Notes under the pieces: generated by a model
The model's input: the letters and a program-made list of their open reading frames with translations, nothing else
The model's database searches: none
What the model was told of the DNA's origin: nothing
Made by a program: the position numbers and the translations under genes
DNA from: Eublepharis macularius
Taxonomy: Eukaryota > Chordata > Lepidosauria > Squamata > Eublepharidae
Direction of reading: 5' to 3'
Assembly: GCF_028583425.1 (NCBI RefSeq)
Contig: NC_072806.1
Coordinates: 37,308,001 to 37,372,000, forward strand
Length of the DNA: 64,000 nt
Shown: positions 19,780 to 56,232 of the stretch, piece after piece
Numbering within the stretch: the first letter of the stretch is position 1
Layout of the letters: each line of letters starts with the position of its first letter

Positions 19780-19990
19780 CTTCAGTTTAGCACCTTCCCT
19801 TATGTAATACATGCCAATACACATAGGATGTCATATAGACAGTTTCCAAATGATCAGGTACAATTATATAACTATCACCAGACCAAACATGTCTCAGCCA
19901 AAAGGCCTTCCTCAGTGGTTCTGAATGAACTGCTACATACCATAAAGTGTGACAGGCCTAACCAGGCACAGAATGAAACAAAGAAATGTG
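19780..19990 (-). mobile_element. Penelope-like arm, family P3 (left copy)
   Basis: An inverted copy of 21120-21287. On the - strand it reads 'gtagcagttcattcagaacc', ACTGAGGAAGGCC, TTTTGGCTGAGACATG, TTTGGTCTGGTGATAG, then 'gacatcctatgtgtattggcat'. The hammerhead-like core lies at 19877-19919; the GAAA box is mutated to GAGA in this copy. Confidence 0.6.
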
Positions 19991-20029
19991 AGGCGCTTTA
20001 CATTTACTAGATACACCATTTGGATAAAC

Positions 20030-20250
20030 AACAACAACAAAGTTTATTAGCCAGAGGCCATCACATTCTCAAAATCAATTAAAAATTACACGATTACACA
20101 TCAGCGACACACACACCATTTTAAAATAAATATTTAAAAGGTACGTATTTCCACAAGTTACCACCTTTAAAAATTTACTTATAAAATTAATCAGTCCTAA
20201 AAACATATTTGGCAACAATATAAACTTAAAATATCCAGGCAATCATTTGG
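20030..20250 (-). mobile_element. Possible LINE 3' end, unassigned
   Basis: (CAA)n at 20030-20042 followed by 'agtttattagccagaggcc' on the + strand looks like the tail of a retroelement on the - strand. A similar 'gctttattggcgtaacagg' occurs at 6270. The family is not recognised. Confidence 0.3.
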
Positions 20251-20387
20251 ATAAATTTCCCCCCCTAACCTGGCTTAGAGAGTTGCACGAATCATTGGAA
20301 ATACCGTAATTCTTATTATCGTATCCGAGGCATTCATATTCATTTTCAGTGGAAAGTTGGGACTCACATCCACCCTTTCCGTAACCA

Positions 20388-21100
20388 TTGATGATGACAT
20401 TTGATTTATATACTGCCCTTCAGGACAACTTAACACTCACTCAGAGAGGTGTCGGGTCTTGCCAGATAGTCCCCCAAGCACTTCACTTCAGACACACTTG
20501 GGTAAAAGTTAAAGTTGCTTTATTAGAGCTGTATCAGTATCAAGGTACTCAGACAAGGTCATTGGCAGAAGTGACAAAAGGTGGATGGGCACTGTTAATT
20601 ATAGGGGAACGTTCCCAGCCCCTGGAAATGGGAGACCGTTAAGAGTTCTGGCGCAAAGGGTCCAGGCTTCGGGTGGGTGGGAGAGAAGGGAATAGGGAGG
20701 GATGAGTTCATCACAGTTCTCAGGGAGGACTGGCTCCGGCCAGCGCTCCAAGGCCACGTTCTGAAGCCAGCTGGGAAATTGAAAGCAAAACACCTGCAGA
20801 TAAGCAACTAATAGCCAAGTAGCAATTAGGATCCCTTTACACATTCTCAGAGGACCAGAACATTATGCATATACCCAATCATGGCAGATATACAGGGGTG
20901 TATCTGACAAGAGGTTTACAAAGTGCACTATTCTCCTCACAGCAATCACCTTGTGAGATGGGTGGGCCTGAGAGAGTTCTGAGGGAGCTGTGACTGACCC
21001 AAGCTCACCCAGCTGGCTTCAAGCGGAAGATAGGGAATCAAACCTGGCTCTCCAGATATGAGCCCTGCTGCTCTTAACCACTACACCAGACTGCATTTAT
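20388..21100 (-). mobile_element. Sauria-like tRNA SINE split by a solo LTR
   Basis: The SINE tail ('atttatatactgcccttcagg', 'cactcagag') at 20388-20449 resumes at 20910 ('gtttacaaagtg', 'cagctggcttcaag', then a tRNA-like head ending near 21095 'cttaaccactacaccag'). The two parts join without loss apart from the 5-bp duplication around the inserted LTR. Confidence 0.85.
20450..20909 (-). mobile_element. Solo LTR of an LTR retrotransposon or endogenous retrovirus
   Basis: 460 bp with TGTC...GACA ends, flanked by AGAGG at 20445-20449 and at 20910-20914. On the - strand it begins TGTCAGATACACC, has AATAAA about 75 bases from its 3' end, and ends GGCAAGACCCGACA. No internal genes remain; recombination between two LTRs would leave this structure. 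The lineage (gypsy or retrovirus) cannot be told from the LTR alone. Confidence 0.85.
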
Positions 21101-21119
21101 AGCATTTCTCTATTCATTC

Positions 21120-21287
21120 TGTGCCTAGTTAGGCCTATTGCACTTGTAGCAGTTCATTCAGGACCGCTGAGGAAGGCCTCTTGGCTGAAACACATGTGGT
21201 CTGGTGACATTTCTGTAACTGGTCATTCGGAAGGTGTCTGTATGACATCCCTATGTATATTGGCATATTTTGTTCTGTATTTGTATC
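21120..21287 (+). mobile_element. Penelope-like arm, family P3 (right copy)
   Basis: It contains ACCG, CTGAGGA, A, GGCC, TCTT, GGCT, GAAA, a CACATGTG palindrome, GTC and TGGT (21163-21205), a hammerhead-like layout. It is the inverted partner of 19780-19990. A SINE with a nested LTR and other sequence now lie between the arms. A hAT-type element begins at 21288. Confidence 0.6.
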
Positions 21288-21722
21288 CAGGGGTCATTTT
21301 GTAGAAAAAGAGCTGGAGGAGCTCATTAGCATAACTCATTAGCATATGCCATGCCCCTTGCCATCACCGGAAGTGTGTCATTAACATAACTGATTTGCAT
21401 ATGCCACACCCCCTGACATCACCTATCCTGGCTGCTTTGGACCCAATCCTGGCCATTCAGGGCCAAAATTGGGCCCAAAATGGCAAAAAGGGCCTGAACA
21501 TGGTAGAAAAGGGGCCCAAAATGGTCAGGATTGGGCCGCTGCTGAGTGGGAGAGTGATCCACCACCCATCAGAGGCCCAATCTGGGCCATTTCGGCCCCA
21601 ATCCAGGCTGAAATGGGCCCAAAATGGCCAAGAGTCGGGTGGGCAGGGCCACCTGACATGTGACCTCTATGAGGAACTACCGGAACTGCGTTCCTGCACG
21701 TTCCCCCTCAAAATGAGCCTTG
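21288..21722. mobile_element. hAT-type element, family B copy 1
   Basis: The ends are CAGGGGTCATTTTG and CAAAATGAGCCTTG. The 8-bp flanks TTTGTATC (21280-21287) and TTTGTATT (21723-21730) match at 7 of 8. The interior has repeated 'gggcccaaaatggc' and 'ctcattagcata' motifs. Non-autonomous. Other copies: 24385, 30114, 51556. Confidence 0.88.
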
Positions 21723-22301
21723 TTTGTATTACACAAGGATGTGATGCTAAACTGTGGACCATACATATAGATATTGACTCAGTATAAGGCTAAAGGTCAC
21801 ATGAACACCCACTTACTTGCCTTATACTAATTCAGACCCTTAGTCTATCAAGGTAACTCTTCTCTACTCTGACCCTGGAGCCACGGACCCTCCCCAGTGG
21901 CTACAGAGTTCATGGAGATGGATCACTCCTTGCCAGCTCTGGCTAAAAATCTTAATGTAGCAGCGCCCTTTTCACTGTGAGAGGAGAATGCAGGAGTGTT
22001 TGCACAGTGTTTTTTACCAATACAGAGCATGGAGCTTTGCATCCAGCCCATCTATTCCTTAAAGAAGCCGACTGGTTCTCCATGGTGCCGCCTCCTCCTC
22101 CTCCATGTCGCTACTCCAGAACGCAAAACCAGACACCTTCCTCTTTCAAATGTATTCCAGCTGCAAACTGTCTTACTCTCACTCACATCTGAACAGTTCA
22201 GGTATATCCAGTAGCTAATAGCTAACAGCCATCAAGCCACCATTGAAACGAACTTCTATCCAACTGCGGCAATTGAGGAAGCCTCTTTAACTATGTGCTA
22301 T

Positions 22302-22651
22302 CAGGGGTGGGCAATTGTTTTGGCTCAGGGGCCACTTTGTGGGAGCGGAGGTTAGTGGAGGGCCGCACCTTTTAAAATGATTGCATTCATTAGTTAACTT
22401 TGCATTTCAGAAAAAGTATAAATTGTATCATAAAAATCAATAAATATAAATTAAATAAAATAGTGGTAGTTTTATTCAATTTATTTATTGTGCTAATTTC
22501 ATATCATCTATAGCTGCAAGCACATTTAATTTTAGAATCAGTTTAATGAGACAAATGTACCCTATCACACTTTTCTACTGTCTTGGCGGGCCACAAAAAA
22601 CTCTGTAGCGGGCCGCATGTGGCCCGCGGGCCGCAATTTGCCCAACCCCTG
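22302..22651. mobile_element. hAT-type element with CAGGGGTGGGCAA termini
   Basis: CAGGGGTGGGCAATTG at the left and CGCAATTTGCCCAACCCCTG at the right form terminal inverted repeats around an AT-rich centre with GC-rich flanks ('ggccgcatgtggcccgcggg'). The target duplication is imperfect (GTGCTATC/GTGCTAAA if shifted one base). The terminus type is widespread among vertebrate hAT elements. Confidence 0.8.
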
Positions 22652-22659
22652 TGCTAAAC

Positions 22660-23210
22660 AGTAAGGTAAATGGGCCTTTCCTATGGCAACATGCATATGG
22701 TTTTGGTTGCATTGACTATTACCTGGCATGAGTTTTTTTCACCCAAGAAAGAGTAAGACTGCATGCAAATTAACTACAATTATTTTAATTCCTTATATTA
22801 CGAAATAATTGCAATCATGTGTCCCATGGAAATAGCACAAAGTGCACATCTATTTAGATTTTCACCAGGGAAGCAAAGCTGAGAGAATCCTCACCCCAAG
22901 ACTTCCACTGTTTCCAAGGCATCTGGGCTGCGTTCTTGGCCATCTGGTTGGCATTTAAGGACTTGAATTTGGCTTAACTGCAAGACATACAGAACTTCTC
23001 CCCCCGTCCCCTTGGCTGTGGTTTCTTCTCAAGGGAAGAGATTTTGGGGCTCGTTCCTACTTGCTTTCATGCTTTGGAAATAGTAAATAGTAAACGCACC
23101 CACTCATGTTCTCCTTTCAGCATCCAGAGTGTGGAAAGTGGGTAGGGAAAGGAAGTGTCACAACCAGGCTGAAGTAAACCAGGCTGTCAACATGAATCAT
23201 GTGCTAGACA
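22660..23210. other. No gene recognised
   Basis: I see neither a recognisable repeat nor a coding signal in this stretch. Confidence 0.35.
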
Positions 23211-23226
23211 TGTCAGATCAAGAGAG

Positions 23227-23349
23227 CAAAATCAAAAAGAGTCCAGTAGCACCTTTAAGACTAACCAACTTTATTGTAGCATAAGCTTTCGAGAATCACA
23301 GTTCTCTTCGTCAGATGCACGACTAACACGGCTAACTCCTCTGCATCTA
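23227..23349 (-). mobile_element. Penelope-like element, family P1 (short copy)
   Basis: Flanked by a perfect 12-bp duplication AGATCAAGAGAG (23215-23226 and 23350-23361), typical of LINE-style target-primed insertion. On the - strand it holds GCAT-CTGACGA-A-GAGAAC-TGTG-ATTCTC-GAA-AGCTT-ATGC (23279-23318) and then 'aaggtgctactggactc'. Confidence 0.75.
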
Positions 23350-23848
23350 AGATCAAGAGAGGATTCCCATTTGGAGACTGCGGTGTCGTTTTGAATGACA
23401 ACTTTAAAATCTGGAGCTGGGGTGTTCTGAGCAGAGTTTCTTTATCTGCCTAGCAAACTCATTTATGATTTTGTTTGTTTGAGAGAAGGAAGTGCTGGAG
23501 ATGTCGTAAAGTCTTGGCAAACATCAGTTTGTTTCCAACTAACACACAGTTTGAGAAGGACTATGGAACACAGGAATGAGTACAGCCGACTACCGGAGAT
23601 AAACGTGCCTTCGTACTTAATACTATACATTGGTAGGCATTTGGCAGGGCCTATTGTGGATTGTGTTAGGCAGGGCTCACGGTAGCCCAGATGAGTGGCC
23701 TTTCACAAGAGGTATCTGTGGGAAGTGTTCTATTGCTTCATTCGGACAGTTCTATGCAGCCAAGTTAAGAGTCTCCTGGAAGTCCAGCGCCCCTGCCCCA
23801 TTTCTGTTGCTTATTTGCAGATGGTAAATACATGTAGTATCCATATTG

Positions 23849-24099
23849 ATGGTTGTTGTGGGTTTTCCGGGCTGTATAGCCGTGGTCTTGGCATTGTAGT
23901 TCCTGATATTTCGCCAGCAGCTGTGGCCGGCATCTTCAGAGCTGTGCCACTGAGAGATCTCTGTCTTTTGGTGCTACACCTCTGAAGATGCCAGCCACAG
24001 CTGCTGGCGAAACGTCAGGAACTACAATGCCAAGACCACTGCAATACAGCCCGGAAAACCCACAACAACCATCGTTCTCTGGCCGTGAAAGCCTTCGAC
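23849..24099. mobile_element. Penelope-like element, family P2, two inverted arms
   Basis: 251 bp flanked by a perfect 13-bp duplication AGTATCCATATTG (23836-23848 and 24100-24112). The arms share 'gttgtgggttttccgggctg', 'gtggtcttggcattgtagtt' and 'gccagcagctgtggc' in opposite orientation. Each arm carries a hammerhead-like core (+ strand 23979-24019; - strand about 23902-23942). The end reads 'ccgtgaaagccttcgac', common in reptile repeats. Confidence 0.78.
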
Positions 24100-24169
24100 A
24101 GTATCCATATTGCTCTTCAAAGTAGCTATGTTGATTTGCATTGAGAGCACTTCGCATACACTGTTAATC

Positions 24170-24310
24170 TTAAAACAGCCTTGTAAGGTAGGCCAACATT
24201 ATTATCTCCATCATGGAGAGGAGGTGGAAACTGAGACAGTAGCTTGCCTAAGGATAGCTAGAGAGTGTGCAGTAAAAGGGAGACTTGAAATGGGACACAG
24301 AACCCTCTCT
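24170..24310 (-). repeat. MIR-like SINE fragment
   Basis: The sequence 'ttattatctccatcatggag', 'gaggtggaaactgagac', 'agtagcttgcctaagg' is the reverse of the conserved MIR core ('ctcagtttcc...', 'aagttacttaac'). Confidence 0.55.
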
Positions 24311-24384
24311 TGCAGCGCTTTCAATGGATTTAGAGTGAAATAACTCTGTATAGGATTGTACTTCCAGCAATTCTGTCAGACAAA

Positions 24385-24816
24385 CAGGGCTCATTTTGAG
24401 GGGGAACGCGCAGGAACGCAGTTCTGGCAGTTCCCCAAAGAGGTCATATGTCAGGTGGCCCCGCCCACCTGACTCTCAACCATTTGGGGCCTGTTTCGGC
24501 CTGGATTGGGGCCAAAACAGCCCGGATCGGGCCTCTGACAGGTGGTGGATCACTCTTCCACTCAGCAGTGGCCTGATCCTTAACATTTTGGACAACTTTT
24601 CGGCCATTTTCAGACCCTTTTTGCCATTTTGGGCTCAATTTCAGCCCTGAATGGCCAGGATTGGGTCCAAAACAGCCAGGATAGGTGATGTCAGGGGTGT
24701 GACATATGCACATCAGTTATGCTAATGACACTGCCGGTGATGTCAAGGGGCATGGCATATGCTAATGAGTTATGCTAATGAGTTCCTCCAGCTCTTTTCC
24801 TACGAAATGACCCCTG
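24385..24816. mobile_element. hAT-type element, family B copy 2
   Basis: It runs from CAGGGCTCATTTTGAGGGGG to CGAAATGACCCCTG and carries the family B interior ('gggattgggtcc'-type blocks, 'gctaatgagttatgctaatg'). The flanking octamers do not match, so the duplication has decayed. Confidence 0.85.
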
Positions 24817-25500
24817 GAACCAGTCTATAGGGCACTGCCGGCTCTTCCCCTTGGAGGCATCAGGGCCCCGGAGCCGTGACACACACACCCAGTGCCTCAC
24901 GCTGGCAGGAGAAAAATGGGGGTGGCATGCCAGCAAGTAACATCACATCTAACAGCAGAAACTGGATATGATGTTATTATATTAGAGCAATGCTTTAGAT
25001 TTTACCTCAGATTCTTCCCAGGGGGTGACCAGCTACAGCATATACCACCAAAATGATTTCAATACCTTAACACTTTCTGTTAGAGATAGAAGTGTTCTCT
25101 TTCACCCCCTCCATGCACCCCGAGAAGCTCCTATTTGTGGGGCTACAGACCACCAGGACTACATTTCCCAGCATGCTGTATAAATCCTCTCTGAAAGTGA
25201 CTAACTTCCCCCTAAAGCACTGACGTTTCAAAAAATCTTTTTCTGTACACATCCTCATGCCCTACATTTTGGACAATTTCTGTTGGTCAGCAGTAGAATA
25301 GCGGAATTCAAGTCCAGGAGCTCCTTGAAGACTCAAAACATCTCCAGGAAGATCGCTTCAGGTAGGTAGCCGTGTCGGTGTGTAGCAGTAGAGCAAGATT
25401 TGGGTCCCAGAGCACCTTGGAGACCCACAAGATTTCCAGGGGAGGAGCTTTGGAGAATCCCTTGGACAAAGGGAGCGCTGACTCGAAAGCCCAAGAACAA

Positions 25501-25682
25501 GGCCGTTTCCACACGTCTTACCTGCCTGAGGAACATCACGCGGAAGACAGCGTCTTCTTGCACGAAATGGTGCAAAACTCCCGGATGACTGCGTCTTCCT
25601 GGCATGATTTCATGCGAGAAGATACGGTCTTCCGGTCTTTTGCGCGATGTTCCTCAGGCAGGTAAGACGTGTGGAAATGGCC
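25501..25682. mobile_element. Inverted-repeat MITE with GGCC termini
   Basis: The ends are GGCCGTTTCCACACGTCTTA and TAAGACGTGTGGAAATGGCC, with arms through 'cctgcctgaggaacatc'. The flanking triplets are CAA and CAG. Related to the element at 42142-42302 (GGCCATTTTCACACTG). CpG-rich interior. Confidence 0.75.
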
Positions 25683-25859
25683 CAGTCGTACCTTGAAGAA
25701 CAACTAAATGGATTCAGCCGTGTTTCTGCTCCACAACCATTTCCTCCCCGCCCCCCCCAATGTGTAAGTAAGGGTCTACCACTTTCCCTTTTGTCTGCAC
25801 AGCTGCTGGGAAAGTCTTGCAAGATGTGAACGGGGGGGGGGGGTTCAAAGCCAGCTGAA

Positions 25860-26467
25860 AAGGGAGGAGAGCCTTTTCCATCAGCATAGAGGGAGGCAGC
25901 TTCGCTCACCTGAACAGGGCCTCCTGCAGGTGCCAGGCTGCCCACGGGAGAAGTCAGCAGCAGCCCGTACACGGGCTCTCTCTGTGGTGGCCCCTACTCT
26001 GTGAAATGACCTGCCTGAGGAGGTCAGGAGAGCCCCCCCCCTCCTGGCTTTCTGCAAACAATGCAAAACTGAATTATTCAAAAAGGCTTTTTACTCAAAT
26101 GGGAGGGCTGTATTGTAGGGGTGGGGTCTCAGATGCTTCGCTAATGAGTTAGGGACCCTAGACTTCATCACTATATTGCCTTACACATTATCTGCTGTTT
26201 TAAACATGCACCATCAGTGCTCCATGTTGTCTAATGTCAGTCCTAGAATTGATGATGTTCTCCTTCAGTATTTTTCCTACTCTGTATTAGATTCTTGCTA
26301 ATGCTATGTCTTTTAAACTTGTATCTATTTACCCTATGACATTGTTTATGGAAATGTCCTGACACTGTATTGAAATCTACTTGATACTGATTGTACTAAT
26401 CTCGTACGGTGTAATCCGCCTTGAGTCTCAGTGAGAAAGGCGGACAATGAATGAGATAAATAAATAC
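25860..26467 (+). mobile_element. L2-class LINE 3' end
   Basis: Around 25985-26075 a frame reads NDLPEEVRRAP, the WN(D/S)LP...R.AP motif at the end of L2/CR1-class ORFs, followed by 'gcaaaactgaattattcaaa' (KLNYSK-like). The 3' tail 'ccgccttgagtctcagtgag', 'aaaggcggacaatgaatgag' and (ATAA)n ends at 26467. Confidence 0.65.
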
Positions 26468-26529
26468 ATTTTATTCTATGAGAACAGTGAATGGAAAACA
26501 AGAAGAAATGGAAGAAGGAAGGAGAGAAG

Positions 26530-27324
26530 TCACAGCTCTTCATCTTCTTGGCACGGCAGCAGGGGACTGAAGGCCAGACATTTGGGCTGGAGAGAGGACC
26601 AAAAGAGGTTCTTGTTGCTCCAGTCCCACTCAACCAGGGCAACCTCCACCTGGCCAAGGAATCGGTTTCGGGTCGAGGAGGCTTTATGCCACACAGAGAT
26701 GTTCAGTCTGGTTTTCTGCAGCTGTGCCTTCCCCACTCGAAACTGCAGGAGTTCCTCAAACACGGGGTCCAGAGTGGCTTTCTGGACGTGGGTCCTCTTT
26801 GGCCTGTGGCGCCGAGGGAGGAGAGACACCTTGACGTAGGGGTTGGAACTCCCCAACTTGGCATCGGCCGCCCTCAATCCACAGCATCGGTCAATGAGGA
26901 CCCAGAGCTCGTGCTGGCGCTCCGCATACAGGACTCCGAACTTCAGGAGCCCCTGGATGTCTGGACACTCCACAGGGGTGGGGGGAGAGCTGCTGGTGGG
27001 CCTGCTCAGCAGAGTGTCAGCCGTCTGGGGGTCCAAGCGTGCTTCCCGTCCTGGGGAGGGACACAGGAGGAGCTCAGAGTGGGGGTCCTGGCTCAGCCCG
27101 TGCGTTAGCTGCCGGTGGGCACCAGCGCACAGGACCGAGACATTCAGGGACTTATCGTTAGTAGAGACACCCTCACCAAAAGGACACGATTGGAAAGCAA
27201 GTACCAAGAGAGGGGAGTTGCAAAAGAGAAAATCAGCCCCTGGCCTCCGTTCCTCCTCTTTGCCACAGAGGCTGTGAGAAGGACCACGGGAGGGGTAGGG
27301 CTTACGGGGCATCTGAGAAGCCAC
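26530..27324 (-). CDS. Single-exon C2-domain protein, synaptotagmin-like (Slp) type; retrocopy or terminal exon
   Basis: Residues 125-248 of the open frame form a C2 domain: GLLKFGVLYAERQHELWVL, AADAKLGSSNPYVKVSLLP, TLDPVFEELLQF, RLNISVWHK, RFLGQVEVAL, and a closing WDW...FW..LQPK. The SVWH and WDW signatures are those of synaptotagmin-like C2A domains. Calcium-binding aspartates are lost: the usual SDPYVK reads SNPYVK and the loop-3 D-x-D reads HKA, so calcium-independent lipid or protein binding is likely if it is expressed. Residues 1-124 look non-coding. A pyrimidine-rich stretch ending CAG lies just before residue 125, so a real exon could start at 26952. No upstream exon was found on this strand. 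AATAAA lies about 60 bases after the stop, within the end of the adjoining LINE tail. A 5'-truncated retrocopy of an Slp gene is the alternative. Confidence 0.6.
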   Translation of the reverse strand: MASQMPRKPYPSRGPSHSLCGKEEERRPGADFLFCNSPLLVLAFQSCPFGEGVSTNDKSLNVSVLCAGAHRQLTHGLSQDPHSELLLCPSPGREARLDPQTADTLLSRPTSSSPPTPVECPDIQGLLKFGVLYAERQHELWVLIDRCCGLRAADAKLGSSNPYVKVSLLPRRHRPKRTHVQKATLDPVFEELLQFRVGKAQLQKTRLNISVWHKASSTRNRFLGQVEVALVEWDWSNKNLFWSSLQPKCLAFSPLLPCQEDEEL

Positions 27325-27789
27325 TCCTTGCTACCCAGGCCCCTTAGAGAAAACGAGAGTGTGGAGAGCTACTCACGTGCCCTCCTGTTCCAGGTCTCCT
27401 CCTGGCCTTTGCTGCCACTGGTATAAGCCTGCCACACCAAAGACAGGAAAGAGAAGGGCGTTCAGCAGGGGGGAGAAGGCAAGTCCGTCCTCAGGAACAA
27501 GGTCAGGGGCAGGTGGGTGCGAGAGGGCCGGTCCCCAGCGGGCTGCTGTAGGCACAGCCTGTCCTTTTTAACAGTTCGGTGGTTGGCCCTTCCGAAGTCT
27601 CCTAGCAGATCCCAGAAGTGGCAATGTCTGAAAAAGGCCCTTACGGGCTCCGGCTTTAATGCCTCTCTGATCCCTGTCCTTAGTAAATCAAGGGAAAGCC
27701 TTGTTTTCTTCCAGGTGTTAAGTTCTGGAGAGATCCTGGGGACGGCTGTGAAAACTCTCACGTGTCTCATGGAAATGAGAACTAGGCTC

Positions 27790-28556
27790 AGCAAGCCAAA
27801 ATTACCAACATACGTTGACAGGTGGGAGAAAGAACTGCCTGGGGAACTTACAATAGATGACTGGGAATCTATTTGGAGTTCTCCCTCGAACAAATCTACT
27901 ATCCAATCAATTAGGACACAGTTCTATAAATTATTTGCACATTGGTATCTCTGTCCCAATAGACTACATAGAATAAATCAGGGTCTTAGCCCTGCTTGCT
28001 GGAAGCTTTGCGGGCAAAAAGGCTCTCCAATTCACTTATGGTGGATATGCCCCCCAATTTATCCTTTCTGGCTGTCTGTTTCTAAAACAATTTTCCAAAT
28101 TACTAAGATTAATCTACCCTTTTCTCCAAAGCTGTTTATATTTGATATCTGGAATGATATCCAAATTTCTCAAAAGACAAAAAACCCTTATTTCTAAATT
28201 ATTAGCAGCTGGTCGTTTGACAATTGCCGCCTTTTGGTCAGATCCAGCTAGACCTTCTATGGATAGGTGGCTTGAGAAACTTTGGGAGATTTGGGTTTTG
28301 GAGAAAATTGTGCACAATCTTTTTTTCTGTAGTTCGCAACATAGTGCTCAACGAAGCAGTTACGAAGAAATTCGGAATCCTGTCTCTGATTATTTGGAAC
28401 TCAGATGGATCCTAGCACAGAGAAAAGACGATAGACTTTGGCTTTCTCTTTGATTGTTCTTATGTCTGAAGCTAGTATGTTCTTTTACATTCTCCAGGGG
28501 TCTAATTGTGTTTATATTTCTGTACTTTTCTATGTTATAAATAAATTGGGGGGGGG
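27790..28556 (+). mobile_element. L1 LINE ORF2 3' fragment
   Basis: The frame reads VDRWEKEL, DDWESIW, HWYLCPNRLHRI, ACWKLCGQKGSPIHLWWICP, matching the C-terminal zinc-knuckle region of L1 ORF2. After a frameshift near 28190 it continues LLAAGRLTIA and MDRWLEKLWEI to TGA at 28451-28453. The 3' end is 'ataaataaattgggg' with a G-run instead of poly(A). The 5' limit is approximate. Confidence 0.88.
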
Positions 28557-28623
28557 GGAGAAATAGGTTTAGCAAGAGTAATCGCTTTTGTATATAGTTG
28601 TGTTTCAGGTTAATAGAGTAGTC

Positions 28624-29671: not shown

Positions 29672-29689
29672 GTCTGGGAAACAAGAGTG

Positions 29690-30110: not shown

Positions 30111-30113
30111 TCT

Positions 30114-32695: not shown

Positions 32696-32710
32696 TAGAA
32701 TCTTAACCAT

Positions 32711-32922
32711 GGCCGATTCCAGATGACTAACCTTAAGTCGCTTCATGCCGTCCTCTTCCGGATCGCGACGGGGAAAATGCGAAATATCGCGTTTCCTCGC
32801 GCGAGTTTTGCGCGTCGTCGCGCAAAACTCGCGCGAGGAAACGCGATATTTCGCATTTTCCCCGTCGCGATCCGGAAGAGGACGGCATGAAGCGACTTAA
32901 GGTTAGTCATCTGGAATCGGCC
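32711..32922. mobile_element. Perfect palindromic MITE (104-bp arms)
   Basis: GGCCGATTCCAG...CTGGAATCGGCC. By base-by-base reading the two 104-bp arms are exact reverse complements around a 4-base centre (TCGT). The flanking triplet CAT occurs at 32708-32710 and 32923-32925. Many CpGs remain undecayed. No coding capacity. Confidence 0.88.
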
Positions 32923-37449: not shown

Positions 37450-37600
37450 AAACCACAGCTCTCTTCGGTGCATCTGACGAAGAGAGCTGTGGTTCTCGAA
37501 AGCTTATGCTACAATAAACTTGGTTAGTCTTAAAGGTGCTACTGGACTCCTTACAATTTTGCAACTATGGACTAACACGTCTAACTCCTCTGGATCTAGG
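37450..37600 (+). mobile_element. Penelope-like element, family P1
   Basis: The hammerhead-like core at 37470-37509 reads GCAT-CTGACGA-A-GAGAGC-TGTG-GTTCTC-GAA-AGCTT-ATGC, followed by 'acaataaacttggttagtc', 'aaggtgctactggactcc' and 'actaacacgtctaactcc'. A partial inverted arm (CCACAGCTCTCTTCG) precedes it. Confidence 0.7.
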
Positions 37601-46690: not shown

Positions 46691-46827
46691 GTATCGAGGA
46701 TGCTCCCTCTGAGCGGTATTCATCCAAAGAAAAATCCAAAACTGGAAGCTTTTATTTAGACCATTAAAAATAGTGTACACTTCTGAATTCTAACAGGACA
46801 CTTTATCAAGCTTGTTGTTTTAAAATA

Positions 46828-46845
46828 GTGTGTGTGTGTGTGTGG
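46828..46845. repeat. (TG)n microsatellite
   Basis: A dinucleotide run followed by a G-run. Confidence 0.9.
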
Positions 46846-46859
46846 GGGGGAGCTATTTC

Positions 46860-48940
46860 AGGCCTTAATTCTTATTTATGTATTATTTATTAATTTGATT
46901 TTTAGCCTGCCCTCCCTGCTAGCAAGTTTGGGGCAGATTACAATAATATAAATGGTACAAAAATAAAACATTTAAATACGTTTAAAACCAGAACAGCAAT
47001 ACAAATATAATCTGAATCTCAAGATGGCAGCCCTCTCCATTCTTCCCAACCACAATATAACCAAGAGGGGAGCGGGGGGGGGCACAGTTGATGATCTCAT
47101 TGTGACTTTGCATGTGAGGGGGGGGGCAGATGGTTTTATACCTCCCCTGGTGGGAGACCAGTATCAAGTTACTCCTTTCAGCCTTCTGGGAAGAAGAAGG
47201 AAAAAATGGCACTGTGCAGTGGAAAACACAAAAATCATTAGTTGATCAATAGCCTCTCCAGCACCCAATGGAGCATGCAGGTCCATCTTGAAGGCTGAGA
47301 TCAGAGGTCACGTGGTAGCCACATTATCTCTTTATGTAAGAGTCCTCTCGGTCCTGCCTGTACATCAGCCTCCAGTTTTATTAATATACTGGCTACCAAA
47401 TTTTTCTTCTAATCTCAGTCTTTTTAGGACTTGTGTGTTCCGCCTGACACTGAGAGACAGTTGAGGAACTGCTTTTTTTCCTCTTTTCAACTGCAGATTG
47501 TCATTTTCATTCTTCCCAGAAAGCCTAAAAGTGCAACTTGATCCCAGCGCTACCTAATCAATTGCAAAGTGCCTGACACTCTGCACAGGATGCCCTCCTT
47601 TAAGATGGGGGGGGGCCCTTAAACATCCCCCTCCCCTCCCCTTTTATTAAGATCCAGCCCAATCAAGCTTTCTACCAGACTTCTTAAAGCTTGCATGAGG
47701 TTAATAATGCTGTTACTCTAAATATAAATTTCGCAGAGGGACAAAATCTCAAGCAAGCCAGCTTGTCCAATGTCAGAGCCGTTACCTTGGCTGCTGGTTC
47801 TGGGACGGGGCTTTGCCTGACACGGAGCCACCTCTGAAAAAGCCACAGCCATGGAGGACCTGCTGCCAAAGGAGAGAGAAGCCCTGGTATTATTCCGTGT
47901 AACTGCTAATGTGGCCCAATTCACTGGAAAACTTTGAACTGCGTATGTACATAGCCAGCCTGAATTAGCTGCTCAGGCTCTGTTGAGGAAGGAGGTTTGT
48001 TGGCTCTTGCGTGGTGACAGAGATGGGGGAAATGCCTTTTTTTCTTTTAAAGGCAGTTTCCAGAGTTAGAAATAGCTTTCGGAACCCAAGTTGCTTTTTG
48101 GTCTGTCCCAAGGAGCACATGAGTGGAGTGGCATCAGCCGAGGAAGCGCCTGTCTGTCTCCTCCAGCTGGCTGGAAAGGGAAAATTGTGTGTGTGTTTCA
48201 TCTTTTGAATACAGCCTGTGAGATGTCTCTTCTCACAGTGCCCCCCCCCAAACCCCCGCTGTTGCTCCTTCCTGCCCTTGGAAGAATGCTTTGTACTCAA
48301 GGTTCTGCCATTCACAGTGACCCTAGTGGAGCGGGAGTATTTTAATTAAAAGGTTGTGAGCAAACCCCCAAGGGTGACCTATTTACTTATTTATCAAGCA
48401 TTTACCTTCCAGCGGTTAGGAAAAGGTCACCGACTTCCCCTGATGCTTTGGAGTTCAGGCTTCTCTCTCTTTTAGATGATTATTCTTTTCCCTCCTCCTT
48501 TTTTAGCTTGGATGAAAAAGATGCTCTGTTGTTCCCTCCAACCTTGGGTGTTATGCATACAACATTTCTGTCAGTAATGATTCTGACTTTTAGGAGGCTG
48601 TGCCTGCCTAACAGGCAGAGAGAGAGAGGGGGGAAAGCGTGTGTTTTCTCATTGAGGTTTGTTTCTGCCAAAAAACTCCTCCAAACAACTGGCTAGTGAT
48701 TATGGCCAATAATGAGATATTGATTGTTTTGCAAATGTCACCACTGGAAGGACAGCAGGGGCTGTGGCGGTTTTGTGGGCTCTGCATTTGTCCGCTTGGT
48801 GGCACTGTAGGTTTTTTTAGGCAGGCCTGTCCTCGCTGCCTCTGTTCAAGAGGTGTTCTCCATGTAGCAAAGTTCCACACACCCAACTCTGCAGCTCCAT
48901 AGTTTATTTGAAAATAAGCCCTTTGATTTAGAACACTACA
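46860..48940. other. No gene recognised
   Basis: A short SINE-like start near 46870-46990 ('ttatttatt', 'cctgccctccctgctagcaa') is possible. The frames at 47684-48902 have no family resemblance and no splice pattern. Confidence 0.35.
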
Positions 48941-48944
48941 GCTA

Positions 48945-49045
48945 TAAAGATCAGAGGGTCTAGTAGCATCTTAAAAATTAGCAAACTTATTGTGCTTTGA
49001 GGTTTTGGGGGCAGAGTCCACTATCTCAGACACATGCCATGTTGC
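48945..49045 (-). repeat. Degenerate P1-like repeat end
   Basis: 'agagggtctagtagcatctt', 'agcaaacttattgtgctttg' and 'agtccactatctcagacaca' keep the order of the P1 elements (target words 'agtagcacctt', 'aactttattgtagc', a hairpin, then CAGAT), but the catalytic-like boxes are lost. Confidence 0.45.
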
Positions 49046-49249
49046 TACATTCAAGATTATATCAGTACACACCAGCCATACATATGGATAAAAACAGAAG
49101 AAAGGCTGGGTGTAGGAAATGTGATTACAAAGTGAAAACAGGAGGTCCAGTCATTTTGGAGAAGGTATGTTAGAATCGCTTGCTTTTTGATTTGATAGAT
49201 CCCTGTCCGGTGGCTCATTAATTTTTTAAAGAAGTTGCAAAATCTCAAA

Positions 49250-49450
49250 ATAGAAAAGAGTCCAGTAGCACCTTTAAGACTAACCAATTTTACTGTAGCA
49301 TAAGCTTTCGAGAATCACAGTTCTCTTCTTCAGATGCATCTGTGATTCTCGAAAGCTTATGCTACGGTAAAGTTGGTTAGTCTTAAAGGTGCTACTGGAC
49401 TCTTTTCTATTTTGCTGCTACAGACTAACATGGCTAAATCTTCTGGATCT
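49250..49450. mobile_element. Penelope-like element, family P1, long palindrome
   Basis: 'aaagagtccagtagcacctt' and TAAGACTAACCAA on the left are mirrored by TTGGTTAGTCTTA and 'aaggtgctactggactcttt' on the right. A 9-base word AAATCTCA(A/G) flanks it (about 49242-49250 and 49455-49463). The left arm keeps a full hammerhead-like core on the - strand (49298-49337, CTGAAGA variant); the right arm has lost its centre. Confidence 0.78.
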
Positions 49451-49459
49451 GTGAAATCT

Positions 49460-51540
49460 CAGTGTCATTTGCCTCCTCTTATGAAAGGAGAAGGGGAAGA
49501 GACTGGTTTTAATATGGCCTTTGGTGAGGGACTGTGAACTCTCTTGATTCTTGCCTCCCCATCAGCTTCTGTAGCTGAACACTTTTCACCTGATTTTAGA
49601 CAACTTGGCTGGGTGAACAGTGTCCTGGGGGAGAGGCTGCAGGAAGGTGAGCGATGGATGCAGGGGTGCAGCACCCCTCATTCATACACCCCTTTACCTG
49701 CTAAAATCAAACCTCTCCACTCCTGCAATAGGAAGGTTTTATGTTTAACTGCATGCGATGGCCACCATTTTGCCTAGTTTTGCTCTGGACGATGGGAACA
49801 AAAGGTGAGAGTGAAAAGTATTGTATGAATACGCTAAAATCACATTGGCCTGACCTTTGGGAGTTTAGTTAGCTGTGGGAAAAGTAAACAAGAATTCTGT
49901 CACTTCAGGCTTCTGTACATTGTTCAAGCTGAATGTTTTGCGTCCAGGCCTCTGGCCAGAGTCTCAGTGGTGATGCCTGCGAGGTGGCTGTATGGGAACC
50001 AGTCCTTAGAGGAGCTCCATTGCAATTCCAGTCTGGCACGACACTGATAACGAGACCCTTCCTCAGAAAACAGTTTGAGTAAAAACAACAGGCTCTCCCC
50101 GGGGGTCTGTAATGGGAACAGGAGCTAATATACTATGTAATAAGAGGTTCTATCTAGTCTTGTATAAAATGAGAAGCTGAAATATCTTAATTCATTTAAA
50201 ATCCCCAGCCGAATGCACATGGTGTTCGGAGACTGGCAAAATGTCTTCCTTGCTTTGGGCTATAAAGGAAGCATTCTGTCCAGGAGAATGTGACTCTTGT
50301 CTAATGAGCAGATCTGGGCTTTGTCTCTTTCTCAGTCCTACACTCCATTAAGAGAGCGCCCATTTGACCTTTGCTGGCTGAATTGCTGACCTCTTCCTTC
50401 CGTAAAGGCTGCAGGTCAGAAGCCTCCCCCCTCCCCCATCTCCTGGATAGCTTCATCAGAACACATCTTGTCGCTGCCGAGTTAACGATCTGGGTGCCAA
50501 GAGGTCAGTTTCCAGCTTGCTGCGTATGGCTGGAGGCACAATGGAGCTTTAAAATAACATCCTCTCATTTTAGTCCTTTAGATCTCGGGTGAACTCTGCA
50601 CTCTCCCCAATGTGCATTTCAGCCCACATTTTTTCTGGATACCAGCTTTACCCAAACTTTTGATCACTGAGTTGCATTTGCGGGGTGGGGGGGAGCATGA
50701 AGTGTGAGTCTGATCTGCCCTTGGAGGGGGCTTGCCTGCTGTGCTTCTGCACGTCACTGTTGCATTCCTCCTGACTGGAAGAGGCAGTCCTAAAGCAGTG
50801 ATTCATGAAGAGATGCAGTGGGGAGACTCCTCTGCAGCCTGTTAATCTGCCTTCTGTCTGTAGGGAGTGTGGTTGAATGACCCAATTTTCCCTAATGCTT
50901 AAGATGCATCTGGCTCACAACAGGTTCACAGTGGAGACTGGACTGGAAAGGGGAACAGTAAATCAAGCAGAGATGCAGCATGCAACCTCTTCTGTGGGCG
51001 GGTACTTTAAGTTCCTTTAATGTTTTGTATTGCACAGCTCAGAACTTGTTGGTTTATATGGAATTGTATTGGCTGAACAGCCTGTACTTGGGATCGGGAC
51101 TGATACTGCGATGTAGATTGTAAAAATACCCTTTGGTGTCCTGTGAGGCAGAAGGTGACTATTGAAAAAGTTCACTGTAAGAAAAGAATCTAAAGTCAAG
51201 AGAGGTTCTAATTAGAGAGAATGAGGAAGGAGAGATGTTTCCAGTGGCTGTTTTATTGCTAAAAATTTCAACAGTTTTAAGTGTTGCCAATATTGTCTGG
51301 AGTAAAATATCTAATAGGTCATTAGGGGATAGAGAAGTTAATTGGAATAATTTGCACTTTCCTCCTGTAGGGCACTTGGTAATATATGTACATATATGTA
51401 CTATATATAGATATATGCATATTTGAAAAAGAGATTTGTATTAAAATTGTACCCTTGTAAGATACAACTCAACAAGTAAAGTACAGAGCTTCAGGGATAA
51501 GCAATCTTTAAGATCCGCCCACTCCACCCCTTTAAGTTAA
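49460..51540. other. No gene recognised
   Basis: No family resemblance in the open frames. The short 'atatatgtacatatatgtac' run near 51380 is a low-complexity AT stretch. Confidence 0.4.
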
Positions 51541-51555
51541 TCAGCTTGTTGTACA

Positions 51556-51822
51556 CAGGGGCCATTTCATCGAAGAAGAGCTGCAGGAACTCATTAGCAT
51601 AACTCATTAGCATAACTCCTTAGCATATGCCACACCCTCGCCATCATCGGAGAGTGATCCATCACCCATCAGAGGCCAGATCTGGGCCATTTCGGGACCA
51701 ATCCTGGCCGCAATGGGCTCAAAATGGCCGAAAATCAGGTGGGCGGGACCACCTGTCATGTGACTTCTTTGGCGAACTACCGGAACTGCGTTCCTGTGCG
51801 TTCCCCCTCAAAATGAACCCTG
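51556..51822. mobile_element. hAT-type element, family B copy 4 (internally deleted)
   Basis: CAGGGGCCATTTCATCG...CAAAATGAACCCTG with a perfect 8-bp duplication GTTGTACA (51548-51555 and 51823-51830). It lacks the central part of the 435-440 bp copies. Confidence 0.93.
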
Positions 51823-51839
51823 GTTGTACAAGAGGTTGC

Positions 51840-52820
51840 TAGAAATGTTAGTGGTTTTTAACTGTCCCTTTAAACATTTTACACTCTGTTCTAAACATGA
51901 CCCACAGCCTGCAGCAGGCAAATGCTGCTAGAACGGTTCAGTTCAAAAAAGGGAAACTAAGGGTGGATCCCAGGGTGGGCAACTTAGCCCAAGTGCCCCC
52001 AAAATGCAACATTTACTCGTGAAGCTGTTGGGGGGTGGGATGGAGGAAGGTGACAGACAGGCACAGATAAAATCCCAGGGCCATTGCCAGCATCTCAGGG
52101 ATTCACTTCGGACGCAGCTGGTGGCTGTGCAGGTTTGGAAGGTGATTGTGGGCATATGCCTGTGAATTCTCCCACACTGCTGGCCCCAGCAGGGCAGCCA
52201 GTGCCTTGCTTGCTTGGGTAGAGATCTCACCCTGGGTGCCAGGTGTGCTGTTATTGGCCAGGGATTGCCCACCCCTGGCCTATCACATCTGCTCCAACAT
52301 TTCTCAGATGTTACACTCCCATTCTTATACCAAGACCCCACACCGCATCAACCACACGCTGCTGACAGTATTTATTTACTCTGCAATAGCCTGTCTTCTG
52401 CTGATCTAAAACCCAAGAGGGTGTTCGTCCTTTGTCATCCAGAAATTTTGCAAAAGGTTTGTGCCAGTCATGGTGCAGGTGGACACACAAGTGAAAGAAG
52501 GTGCTCAAGCCAGAGGCCTAGGAAAGCCGAGCCCTTCCCATCCTGGTCCCTTATGCTAGTGTTTTCGAAGCCTATGACCCAGCAGGATCGGGCCGTGATT
52601 CATTCAGGATTTGTTAGATTTTTAACCCGTAATTCAAACATTAAAGTATTGATTTCCCTTATCTCTGAGTAAGCACAGAATCGCCAATTTGAGTAAGTTG
52701 TGGGAGTTATCATACAATCAAGGGCTTCCCTCTGTTTCTAGACAGCACCGGCATCTTTCTTTCTAAAAACTAAGATTACAGGCAAAATTATATACGAACA
52801 CATGAAGCTGCCTAATGCTG
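51840..52820. other. No gene recognised
   Basis: No credible coding region or named repeat. The overlapping frames at 51943-52672 are unsupported. Confidence 0.35.
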
Positions 52821-52839
52821 AATCAGACCCTATGTCACA

Positions 52840-54015
52840 GAATCAGAGTTGAAAGGGGCCATACAGACTTTCTAGTCCAACCCCTTGCCCAGTGCAGGAT
52901 CAGCCTAAAGCATCTCTGACAAATATTCATCCAGCCTCTTCTTGAAAACTGCCAGTGAGGGGGAGCTCACCACCTCCCTAGGCAGCTGATTCCACTTTTG
53001 AACTACTCTGACCGTGAAAAAGTTTTTCCTAAGATCCAGCCGGTGCCTTTCTGCATGTAATTTAAGCCCATGGCTTCGGGTCCTACCCTCTGCTGCCAAC
53101 TGGAACAGCTCCTTGCCCTCCTCCAAATGACAGCCTTTCAAATATTTAAAGAGAGCAATCTTATCCCCCCTCAATCTCCTCTTCTCCAAACTAAACATTC
53201 CCAAGGCCCTCAGCCATTCCTCGTAGGGCTCAGACTCCAGACCCCTGATCATTCTCATCACTCTCTTCTGCACCCTCTCGATTTTGGCCACATCCTTTTT
53301 GAAGTGAGGCCTCCAGAACTGCACACAGTGCTCTAGGTGTGGCCTGACCAAGGCAGTATAGAGAGGGGCTATGACCTCCTGCGATTTCGATGCAATGGCC
53401 CTTTTGATACAACCCAAGACTGAGTTTGCCTTTTTTGCCACCGCATCACACTGACTGCTCATATTTAGTTTACAGTCCACTCTTACTCCAAGATCTCTTT
53501 CACATACACTACTACCCAGAAGTGTATCCCCCATCCTGTATTTGTGCTTCCCATTTTTGTGACCCAGATGTAATACTATGCACTTATCTGTGTTGAACTG
53601 CATCCTGTTCACAACTGCCCACTTCTCCAGAGTATTCAGGTCTTGTTGAATTTTAACTCTATCTTCTTGGGTGTTTGCCAGTCCTCCCAATTTGGTATCA
53701 TCAGCAAATTTAATGAGTAGCCTGTTTACCCCTTCATCCAGATCATTGATAAAAATATTGAAAAGTACCAGGCCCAAAACCGAGCCCTGTGGTACCCTAC
53801 TGGACACCTCCCTCAAATGTGATGAAACGCCATTGGCCACCACTCTTTTGGTGCGGTCCTCTAACCCGTTCCCTATCCACCGAACTGTCCCATAGTTCAG
53901 TCCGCAGTCTTCCAGTTTACCCATTAGAACATTAAAGCACCTTGCAACAGAGTCTGGCATTTCATACACTGAAGCTCCTGAAAGTATATTTTGAGCCATT
54001 ATGTAAGACAATTTT
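52840..54015 (-). mobile_element. CR1 LINE, 5'-truncated, with long open reverse-transcriptase fragment
   Basis: One open frame of 368 codons (54011 to 52905) covers the C-terminal half of the CR1 reverse transcriptase and the end domain: VPQGSVLGLVLFNIFINDL, the catalytic-box motif FADDTKL, WAVVNRMQFNTDKC, ERDLGVRVD, LVRPHLEHCVQFW, RVMRMIRGLESE, GMFSLEKRRLRGDKIALFKY and FFTVRVVQKWNQLP. A CR1 3' UTR (reverse of 'ggttggactagaaag' and 'ccctttcaactctgattc') follows down to about 52840. The intact frame suggests a fairly young insertion; the N-terminal part and ORF1 are missing. Confidence 0.95.
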
Positions 54016-54039
54016 GGTTTCCTACTGTATCTTTGCCCT

Positions 54040-54260
54040 GACCTGGATAGCCCAAGTGAGTGAGCCTGATCTCGTCAGATCTCCAAAGCGAAGCAGGGTT
54101 GGCTTTGGTTAGTAATTAGATGGGAGACCTCCAACAAATACCAGGATTGCAGAGGCAGGCAATGGCAAACCACCTCTGTTAGTCTTTTGCCAAGAAACCA
54201 CCAGCAGGGGTCACCATAAGTCAGCTATGACTTAAGGGCACTCTCTGCCACCACTATATC
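54040..54260 (+). mobile_element. 5S rRNA-derived SINE, full-length
   Basis: 'gcctgatctcgtcagatctc', AAGCGAAGCAGGGTTGG, 'tagtaattagatgggagacc' follow 5S rRNA through both internal promoter boxes. Then 'ggcaggcaatggcaaaccac', 'tctgttagtcttttgcc', 'ggtcaccataagtcagctat' and an ending near 'cttaagggcactc'. Confidence 0.9.
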
Positions 54261-54269
54261 TTTAACCAG

Positions 54270-54505
54270 AGAGCCAGTGTGGTGCAATGCCTAGGGTGAC
54301 AGACTAGGATCTGGGCAACTCGATTCCCCGCTCTGCCATGGAAGCTTGCTGGGTGACCTTGGGCAAAGTACCGTGCACTTGGCCTAACCTACCTCTCAGG
54401 GTTGTTGTGAGGGAAAAACGAAGGTGAGGAGAATGATGTAAGACACTTTGGGTCCCCGTTGGGGAGAGATGCATGGTATAACAGAAATAAAATAAATAAA
54501 ATTTG
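54270..54505 (+). mobile_element. Sauria-like tRNA SINE
   Basis: 'gagccagtgtggtgcaatgc' head, 'aactcgattccccgctctgc', 'gctgggtgaccttgggcaaa', 'acctacctctcagggttgtt', 'gtaagacactttgggtcccc', tail (AAAT)n. Confidence 0.9.
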
Positions 54506-54889
54506 CTTTTAAATCCACGGAGGTCCTGCAGTTGTGCAGTAACACTGGCACCCTTATTTTCACCTGTGAAATGTTGGAGAGTATGCAGACATACATGAAA
54601 TGCTTGAGCATATATCTCATCATGCATGCAAAGGAAGAAAAGGTGGTTGTACACATGAATTAATTATTTAAGCATATGTATTTTCTTATGTGGAAAAAGG
54701 ATTGCATGGACATTTTTCTGTCTCTTTGGTATCTGTAATGAAGTGGAGGGGTTTTTTTTTTTAGTATTCACAGGCCATTATGTTCTCACTGTTCTCCAGT
54801 CATCCCTTACTGGTCCTTGGTGCACTCTTTCTCAGACTTTCTTTGCTATGATCTTTTCAGAAAGGTGGCTGGCGGGGGGGGGGGCTAAT

Positions 54890-55180
54890 CGTAATAGCTA
54901 TAATTGCTGCAGCAATTACTAATTTTTACAAAGCTATCAAAAGGCCCTCTTGTGGTACGGCGGGGAAAAATGCAGACGAAACTGTGGCTAATGGAGAAAA
55001 ATGTGTAGATCCCCTCCCCCACCCCATATGGAAGCTCCATTCCAAATCCAAATGTCTCTGCAGCAGCAATGAATGCAAAAGGGAGAATCTTCATAGAACC
55101 GTAGATCTGGAAGGGGCCTTACAGACCGTCTCTTCCAACCGCCTGCCCAATGCACGAACAGCCTAAAGCTGCAGGAGCAG
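54890..55180 (-). repeat. CR1 3' UTR fragment and unassigned sequence
   Basis: At 55090-55170 'catagaaccgtagatctgga', AGGGGCC and 'caaccgcctgcccaatgcac' match the reverse of the CR1 3' UTR also seen at 52845-52910. The rest is unassigned. Confidence 0.65.
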
Positions 55181-56035
55181 GCGAGGTCAACATTCTCACC
55201 AGATTTAGCTTCAGATGCTCCATTCTCCCCCAAGTTTCAGAAGGAAAACAGCCTTTGGTGTACAGGTATCACACAGCTCACTGGGTGCTGATGCTAATTC
55301 CTAATGGTATGTGAAACGTGGGCAAATAGGTTTTAGAAAACCACATTAATGTGGGTTTATGCTGATTTCTAAGTGGAGAAGCAAAATCTATTCTCCGCAT
55401 GTGGTTTCTTATAAAAGAATCCAATTCCCCCAAGTCAGACGGGAAAGAACACTTTGTCAACCAGCACAAGAGTAGAATGTGACAATTCACAATCTACCAG
55501 TGTGAAGTCTAGCGTGAGTAATGTGACAAATCTTATAATGCCACATGGGTTGTGTTTTGGGTTGTTATGTGTGTTTGCACTATTTTAATTCAGAAAGGCT
55601 TTGCACCTGCCAAAACAGCTAGCAATCTTGGAGGAGGAAAACAACTTGGGTTCATTTTGTCTAGGAGACGAGGATGTTTTGCACTGGCTACCCAGCCATC
55701 AATTCATCAACTGTTAGGCAGACTGCAAAGGAAACAGCCGGGTCATATTCTGCTCATTTGCTGCTGAAAGGTGTGTGGCAGCTAAGAGAGAAAGCTCTGA
55801 TCAAGATTCTTTCGCCAGCATAAAAGCCGGAGATTGAGCTTGTTCCATAAGTTACTGGTAGCTGTGTATCTCCAGGTGGATGATAACTGTGTAAAAGTAA
55901 AGTGAATATGTGACTGTATTATTCATGCCATATCTATAACAAGAGATGTGAACACCCCAAAAAGTGTTTTTTCCACCCCACCCTCAATTACTTCATTTTC
56001 TCCAGCAGAAAAATTGGAAAATTTGGGGGATCATA
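55180..56035. other. No gene recognised
   Basis: No family resemblance or repeat that I can name. Confidence 0.35.
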
Positions 56036-56052
56036 ACAAATACCTCCTCTGA

Positions 56053-56232
56053 TCCAGAGGAGTTAGCCGTGTTAGTCTGTAGTCTCAAAACAGTAAAGAC
56101 TCCAGTAGTAGCACATTTAAGACTAACCAACTTTATTATGGCATAAGCTTTCGAGAACCACAGTTCTCTTCATCAGATGCACAATGCATCTGACGAAGAG
56201 AACTGTGGTTCTCGAAAGCTTATGCTGCAATA
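56053..56232. mobile_element. Penelope-like element, family P1, two arms
   Basis: Flanked by a perfect 15-bp duplication AAATACCTCCTCTGA (56038-56052 and 56233-56247). It begins TCCAGAGGAGTTAGCCGTG. The left arm (- strand, 56141-56180) has the canonical CTGATGA box; the right arm (+ strand, 56186-56225) has CTGACGA. Both have GAGAAC-TGTG-GTTCTC hairpins, GAA, AGCTT and GCAT/ATGC flanks. It ends in CAATAAA. Confidence 0.8.

Follow-up and report, generated by a model that had tools for sequence, protein, structure and literature searches.

The 64-kb stretch of the Eublepharis macularius genome analyzed here (contig NC_072806.1, positions 37308001–37372000, hereafter the window) contains three families of inverted-repeat motifs, P1, P2, and P3. 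They are very likely minimal type I-like hammerhead ribozymes of Penelope-like elements (PLEs) of the GIY-YIG class, located in the pseudo-long terminal repeat (pLTR) or 3′ region and characterized by one extra nucleotide, nucleotide 10, between A9 and stem II; we hold this reading together with the working proposed for it below. An initial annotation of the window had taken the three for sequence-unrelated families that independently share one hammerhead layout, not known to be described, with exactly one extra nucleotide and a self-complementary stem III, and possibly acting as dimers of inverted or tandem arms.

Hammerhead motifs in the window

Every CTGANGA was listed on both strands of the window and put through a descriptor comprising CTGANGA, 0–3 extra nucleotides, a stem II of 4–7 bp flush with GAA, a self-complementary A...T stem III of 4–12 nucleotides, H, and a stem I of at least 3 bp. 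Six sites matched, one in P2 (23982, plus strand) and five in P3 (37474 and 56190 on the plus strand; 56176, 49333, and 23314 on the minus strand). Exactly one extra nucleotide was present in all six, U in P2 and A in P3, and in all six stem II was not flush with A9, as it would be with the canonical 10.1–11.1 pair. Stem III was diminished to 4 self-complementary nucleotides in each match, ACGU in P2 and AGCU in P3. Compared with six in the real sequence, 1000 dinucleotide-preserving shuffles of the window yielded one match altogether, and chance is ruled out as the source of the P2 and P3 motifs in the window. None of the 34 matches given by an Rfam scan of the window at E values up to 5 was to a hammerhead family; the matches to microRNA (miRNA) models that were shown with an alignment (10 of the 34) were inverted-repeat hairpins, all below the gathering scores. 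The features of the window that concern the motifs are as follows, with their basis in brackets where one applies.

1..240, minus strand: GIY-YIG region of a P3-family PLE open reading frame (ORF), 96% identical over 80 amino acids (aa) to the ORF of locus L068 (see below)
19811..21266, no strand: P1 inverted arms 19811–19988 and 21103–21266, 78% identical when inverted (arm comparison)
19882..19919, minus strand: P1 hammerhead-like motif of the left arm (19915, minus), degenerate, with GAG for GAA (by eye, family alignment)
21162..21202, plus strand: P1 hammerhead-like motif of the right arm (21167, plus), degenerate (by eye, family alignment)
23279..23318, minus strand: P3 hammerhead, single arm (descriptor)
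23836..23848, no strand: 13-bp direct repeat AGTATCCATATTG, left copy, likely target site duplication (repeat test)
23848..24073, no strand: P2 inverted head-to-head PLE insertion, arms 88% identical when inverted (arm comparison)
23902..23942, minus strand: P2 partner arm (23939, minus), degenerate, with AUAU for ACGU and a stem I of 2 bp, failing the descriptor (by eye)
23979..24019, plus strand: P2 hammerhead CUGAAGA-U-GCCAGC(CACAGCU)GCUGGC-GAA-ACGU-C-AGG (descriptor)
24100..24112, no strand: 13-bp direct repeat AGTATCCATATTG, right copy (repeat test)
37470..37509, plus strand: P3 hammerhead that has, on its left side, a short partner arm in inverted orientation (inverted match 37451–37494) (descriptor)
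49298..49337, minus strand: P3 hammerhead within the inverted pair 49246–49414 (descriptor)
56038..56052, no strand: 15-bp direct repeat AAATACCTCCTCTGA flanking the 56-kb P3 pair, left copy, likely target site duplication
56141..56180, minus strand: P3 hammerhead, left arm of the 56-kb inverted pair (descriptor)
56186..56225, plus strand: P3 hammerhead, right arm, CUGACGA-A-GAGAAC(UGUG)GUUCUC-GAA-AGCU-U-AUGC (descriptor)
56233..56247, no strand: 15-bp direct repeat AAATACCTCCTCTGA, right copy (repeat test)

The hammerhead core CUGANGA...GAA...UH with stems I and II was present in one of the two P2 copies in the window and in all five P3 copies that keep CTGANGA. The common layout therefore stands as written for P2 and P3; it is absent from both P1 copies in the window, and P1 conforms indirectly, through its family alignment. 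The left-arm motif of P1 has the extra A, the stem III ACAUGU, U at the H position, and a stem I of 4 bp, and the right-arm motif keeps the extra A and GAA and has the stem III ACACAUGU followed by G, which leaves no UH site (both read by eye). The genome yielded 11 P1 sequences, of which two are those in the window and the other nine copies are 75–88% identical. Their alignment, read by eye, suggests the ancestral motif CUGAGGA-A-GGCC-UCUU-GGCU-GAA-ACGUGU-U-UGGUC, which fits the layout except that its stem III, ACGUGU, is self-complementary only through central G-U pairs. The sequence between the P1 arms looks, by eye, like later repeat insertions.

In P2, the nucleotides A9, U10, and G10.1 read AUG, with the extra U as the second base of the codon, and the predicted cut after H17 lies 26 nucleotides from this AUG.

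Recurrence of the extra nucleotide across the genome

The 2.24-Gb genome was scanned with patterns derived from the motifs, with the reversed pattern as the control; the individual places considered here are the first 100 of each pattern, and because copies share descent, the figures count sequences, not events. The P2 pattern, which allowed 0–3 free nucleotides, had 34,249 matches (17,052 on one strand and 17,197 on the other), whereas its reversed control had none; a single extra U was seen by eye in 100 of the 100 listed. The P3 pattern had 1,494 matches (763 + 731) and again none for the control, and the 100 listed carried one A in 98 cases, one G in one, and AA in one. With a generic extra-A pattern, CTGANGAAG...CGAAANNTH, 41,303 places were found (20,705 + 20,598), as against 232 (118 + 114) for the control, whereas the flush pattern without the extra A, CTGANGAG...CGAAANNTH, gave 931 (464 + 467) as against 799 (384 + 415). 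Part of the flush-pattern list consisted of P3- or P2-type copies in which the extra base had mutated to G or been lost.

For stem III of 6 nucleotides, the raw counts were close to the control, only slightly higher for AC..GT (352 versus 282) and lower for AT..AT (134 versus 180), so that only a test of stem II on the listed sequences was informative. This test comprised 147 distinct sequences from 100 of the 352 AC..GT places and approximately 100 of the 134 AT..AT places. A stem II of at least 4 bp followed one extra nucleotide in 53 of the 147, and followed 0, 2, 3, and 4 nucleotides in 1, 3, 0, and 1 sequences, respectively; with the stem region shuffled, the expected numbers were approximately 3.3, 3.3, 3.1, 2.8, and 1.6 for 0, 1, 2, 3, and 4 extra nucleotides. 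A strict 6-nucleotide palindrome was found in 36 of the 58 sequences with such a stem II and in 26 of the 89 without it. Further stem II types with one extra nucleotide included GGCC, GTAA, GTGA, GCTT, GGTC, and others.

The pairing of P3-type stem II was followed in the 33 distinct sequences among the 100 extra-A matches listed, whose pair 1 and extra A were set by the search pattern itself. Pairs 2–5 were standard in 30–32 of the 33, with two-sided exchanges at pair 2 (AT/TA), pair 3 (GC/AT), and pair 5 (AT/GC) and none at pair 4, and pair 6 formed in just 15 of the 33. When the register was shifted to 0 or 2 extra nucleotides, pair 1 formed in 0 and 1 of the 33 and pair 3 in 4. The shared RNA form proposed by the initial annotation is supported: over several stem II types, the single extra nucleotide and the pairing of stem II are both found much more often than chance would give, and a palindromic stem III is more frequent where stem II forms.

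Penelope-like elements carrying the motifs

P3-type motifs were linked to PLE ORFs at several loci. At locus L036, the GIY-YIG frame ends at 1809, and a P3-type motif starts at 2122, 313 nucleotides after the stop codon. Locus L068 contains reverse transcriptase (RT) and GIY-YIG segments, in separate ORF segments (RVT_1, E = 1e-11; GIY-YIG, E = 1e-5), between two outward-facing P3-type motifs, and its outer 612 bp on each side are inverted copies with 98% identity. The GIY-YIG region at the left edge of the window (1..240) belongs to the same family, and a P3-type motif with a damaged stem I lies downstream of it, just outside the window (locus L074). For P2, loci L069 and L070 carry ORFs with RVT_1 (3e-12 in L069) and, at each end, an outward-facing P2-type motif, within inverted arms of 1700 bp with 99% identity and 962 bp with 93% identity, respectively. 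The motifs of L070 are intact, and both motifs of L069 read AAA for GAA, so that the link of P2 to an intact motif is carried by L070. The endonuclease region of the P2 element resembles the GIY-YIG region of P0002, a PLE protein of 722 aa from this genome (45% over 31 aa). Among named proteins, P0002 is closest to those of squamates (Anolis, Eublepharis, Paroedura, and Podarcis); proteins of amphibians and of a few fish and amphioxus come next. The start of the P2 ORF had no match in a public protein set.

Over 269 aa, the RTs of P2 and P3 share 36% identity and are homologous; the P2 ORF also has a relative in a third PLE ORF (31% over 366 aa). P2 and P3 are therefore not independent inventions, and inheritance within PLEs is simpler. 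The independent recurrence claimed by the initial annotation is thus not supported, and its description of the families as unrelated in sequence applies to the flanks of the motifs but not to the P2 and P3 elements as a whole. P1 is a putative PLE family.

Several other observations were made at PLE loci. At L040 (2671–4836), an open PLE frame of 722 aa contains RT and GIY-YIG, and the scans used revealed no hammerhead near it; a loose scan of 20 loci requiring 4 bp in stem I gave no matches. At L036 (1860–1940) and L074, inspection by eye showed a further inverted pair of hammerhead-like motifs, older and degenerate, in the interval from the end of the ORF to the P3 motif. Hammerhead-like matches of other sequence types occurred at G000:C3:92824914 and G000:C1:86643899, 435 and 338 bp downstream of GIY-YIG, respectively, on the same strand. 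Locus L050 was considered as a fusion of P2 with a PLE ORF and rejected as linkage, since the P2 pair was seen on inspection by eye to lie within an older PLE.

Relationship to known hammerheads

Minimal PLE hammerheads with little or no stem III reportedly cleave as dimers, as Lunse, Weinberg and Breaker in 2017 and Cervera and de la Pena in 2014 are said to have found. Minimal PLE hammerheads lacking helix III are reported in PMC7761336 and PMC6155905, dimer or double-hammerhead forms are mentioned with reference to Lunse 2017 in PMC7761336 and PMC6466107, and a double form is stated in PMC6466107 to need a palindromic sequence and a tandem arrangement. The extra nucleotide has a precedent in the plus-strand hammerhead of chrysanthemum chlorotic mottle viroid (CChMVd; De la Pena and Flores 2001, in PMC3705267), in which an extra A10 lies between A9 and G10.1, the same position as here, although that is a viroid RNA, unlike the PLE motifs. 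The hammerheads of axolotl retrozymes (PMC7229834) are similar in stem III, with a very weak helix III and a palindromic tetraloop, and cleave much better as dimers; they differ in keeping contacts between loops 1 and 2 and in lying in tandem, non-autonomous elements. The P2 and P3 elements fetched whole do not belong to the retrozyme class (plant LTR or animal non-LTR), as they have RT ORFs and inverted copies.

Among the closest known systems is Poseidon of Anolis carolinensis (PAc; PMC11167929), whose hammerhead has the same geometry as P2, with the cut 26 nucleotides after the start codon; by this geometric likeness, P2 is very probably a Poseidon hammerhead. Reverse transcription of PAc starts in an AC-rich stem loop, and the P2 arms carry ACAACAACC near their outer ends, as seen by eye.

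The bulged variant that the initial annotation did not know to have been described is therefore in print in its parts: small PLE hammerheads that cleave as dimers, a stem III that is palindromic, and an additional A or U between A9 and stem II. We could confirm no single earlier paper that unites all these features for PLEs, and the literature surveyed does not state the extra nucleotide for PLE hammerheads; the likeliest papers lie outside the survey, and we do not claim the feature as unpublished. The motifs are PLE hammerheads with a known core variation, and one family is very probably a published ribozyme. At most, what may be new is the near-exclusive single extra nucleotide over several stem II types in one genome and its overlap with the start codon in P2.

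Inverted pairs and flanking repeats

Among the matches listed, the P3-type inverted pairs within 1 kb were all head to head, facing outward (13 of 13), as were the P2 pairs within 150 bp (10 of 10); P3-type pairs up to 4 kb apart included 21 outward, 1 inward, and 5 same-strand cases. Some of all these pairs are segmental duplicates. Direct repeats of 9–15 bp flank 7 of 11 insertions (the P2 pair and the 56-kb P3 pair in the window, L005, L050, L068, L069, and L070), and in the control, a 9-mer was shared by 14 of 300 random pairs of 105-bp stretches. The 37-kb pair is counted within the 11, although its test was invalid because the stretches overlapped, and L007, for which no flanking repeat was found, had guessed arm bounds. 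In the rotifer Adineta vaga (PMC3846280), the inverted pLTRs of Penelope families are likewise mostly head to head, with target duplications of 8–10 bp in several copies, an optional tail, and the first ORF codons inside the pLTR. We read the pairs as single insertions of two 5′-truncated copies joined head to head, not as ribozyme dimers.

Such a junction would form if reverse transcription started in the tail at both outer ends of the insertion. Alternatively, the pairs could arise by self-priming, in which one cDNA folds back on itself, as proposed in PMC3846280 from palindromes at head-to-head Penelope junctions; this is plausible, though not what we expect. In L068 and the 56-kb P3 pair, the two arms end at different tail positions (by eye), which slightly favors two-sided priming at a break over self-priming. 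In vitro, cutting and extension by PAc take place on both DNA strands (PMC11167929), and the flanking repeats suggest a staggered cut of two strands, although a cut of this kind followed by self-priming could have the same outcome. At N7 the arms differ (C or T), which might have pointed to two RNA templates; this argument was dropped, as a CpG change accounts for the difference.

Proposed working and alternatives

In the working that we propose, transcripts of tandem PLEs, or two separate RNAs, would bring two motifs together, and the palindromic stem III would pair between them to form a double hammerhead. Each motif would then be cut after H17, releasing RNAs of unit length. As the AUG of P2 takes its U from the extra nucleotide and the predicted cut follows 26 nucleotides later, cleavage would part the start codon from the ORF. 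More tentatively, nucleotide 10 might be a class-defining core part of PLE hammerheads that in Poseidon doubles as the start-codon U, such that an RNA would turn from messenger into template on cutting itself, perhaps in response to the protein of the same element. Exactly one inserted nucleotide is found in almost all motifs of this genome that have a good stem II; we nevertheless consider this extension rather doubtful.

Several results weigh against the identification of the motifs as working PLE hammerheads. The copies listed are kin by descent, were taken from the first 100 places, and include pairs that are segmental duplicates. No PLE ORF was found in the 1.3 kb upstream of the one P1 copy examined; both motifs of L069 are damaged; the P2 endonuclease of L069 scores weakly (T5orf172, E about 0.1); and a relaxed scan downstream of 30 GIY-YIG hits gave 5 same-strand and 5 opposite-strand matches, without enrichment. 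A single P3-type pair among those up to 4 kb apart faces inward, and the search for flanking repeats found none around P1 and none of at least 9 bp around the 49-kb P3 pair. The minimum of the cofold prefers other pairings over the double hammerhead. According to PMC11167929, cleavage by the PAc hammerhead is not seen unless the PAc protein is present, and the ends of RNA-seq reads never fall at the cut site. The extra A10 of CChMVd moderately lowers the rate of cleavage, C or G is harmful, and U raises the rate 3–4 fold (PMC3705267); because A10 lowers the rate, the extra nucleotide need not help.

Some of these points would also suit motifs that are inert relics, hitch-hiking without a ribozyme role today. 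Most of the copies fetched are truncated or damaged, L069 having AAA for GAA at both ends, and the insertion of PAc in vitro does not need cleavage (PMC11167929). We nevertheless consider inertness unlikely, since the core, the extra nucleotide, and stem II pairing have been kept through compensatory changes across subfamilies. A convergence of three unrelated RNA families on a bulged palindromic hammerhead is very improbable: P1, P2, and P3 have dissimilar flanks and different stem II and III sequences, and several further stem II types share the single extra nucleotide, yet the RT homology of P2 and P3 and the related third PLE ORF stand against it, and inheritance within PLEs needs fewer events. 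The suggestion that the motifs of inverted pairs act as dimers in cis when both arms are cotranscribed has next to no chance of being right, common as such pairs are, because a strand of such a pair has a single sense motif, the other being its reverse complement, and the arms fold on each other into a hairpin (−89.5 kcal/mol for P2 and −76.3 kcal/mol for P3). The dimer of the initial annotation is thus excluded for inverted arms; two sense motifs can come only from tandem copies, also named in that annotation, or from two RNAs.

A tandem array was observed at locus L071 (G000:C1:10495500-10495990), with seven CTGANGA-A-GAG motifs of P3 type on one strand at a period of 52 bp, one of which has AAA for GAA; this array is a candidate for dimers in cis.

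Other repeats in the window

Four further repeats were noted. At 56747–56821, a near-perfect inverted repeat was scored by Rfam miRNA models below threshold, and an inverted repeat with arms of approximately 30 bp at 7125–7207 was matched by an Rfam miRNA model below threshold on both strands. An inverted repeat of approximately 110 bp at 32762–32871 is rich in G+C and has many CGCG runs, and a 114-bp tandem unit is present in approximately two copies at 62844–63089.

Implications for Penelope-like elements

The inverted pairs invite a misreading that these results correct, as they reflect the insertion of a retrotransposon and not the architecture of a ribozyme. If the overlap of the start codon with the cleavage site in P2 matters, it would let a retrotransposon keep translation apart from reverse transcription by simple means. 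The same departure from the textbook hammerhead core is common to tens of thousands of copies in a single vertebrate genome, which provide a natural data set for the role of nucleotide 10 in a setting where stem III may form only between two units.

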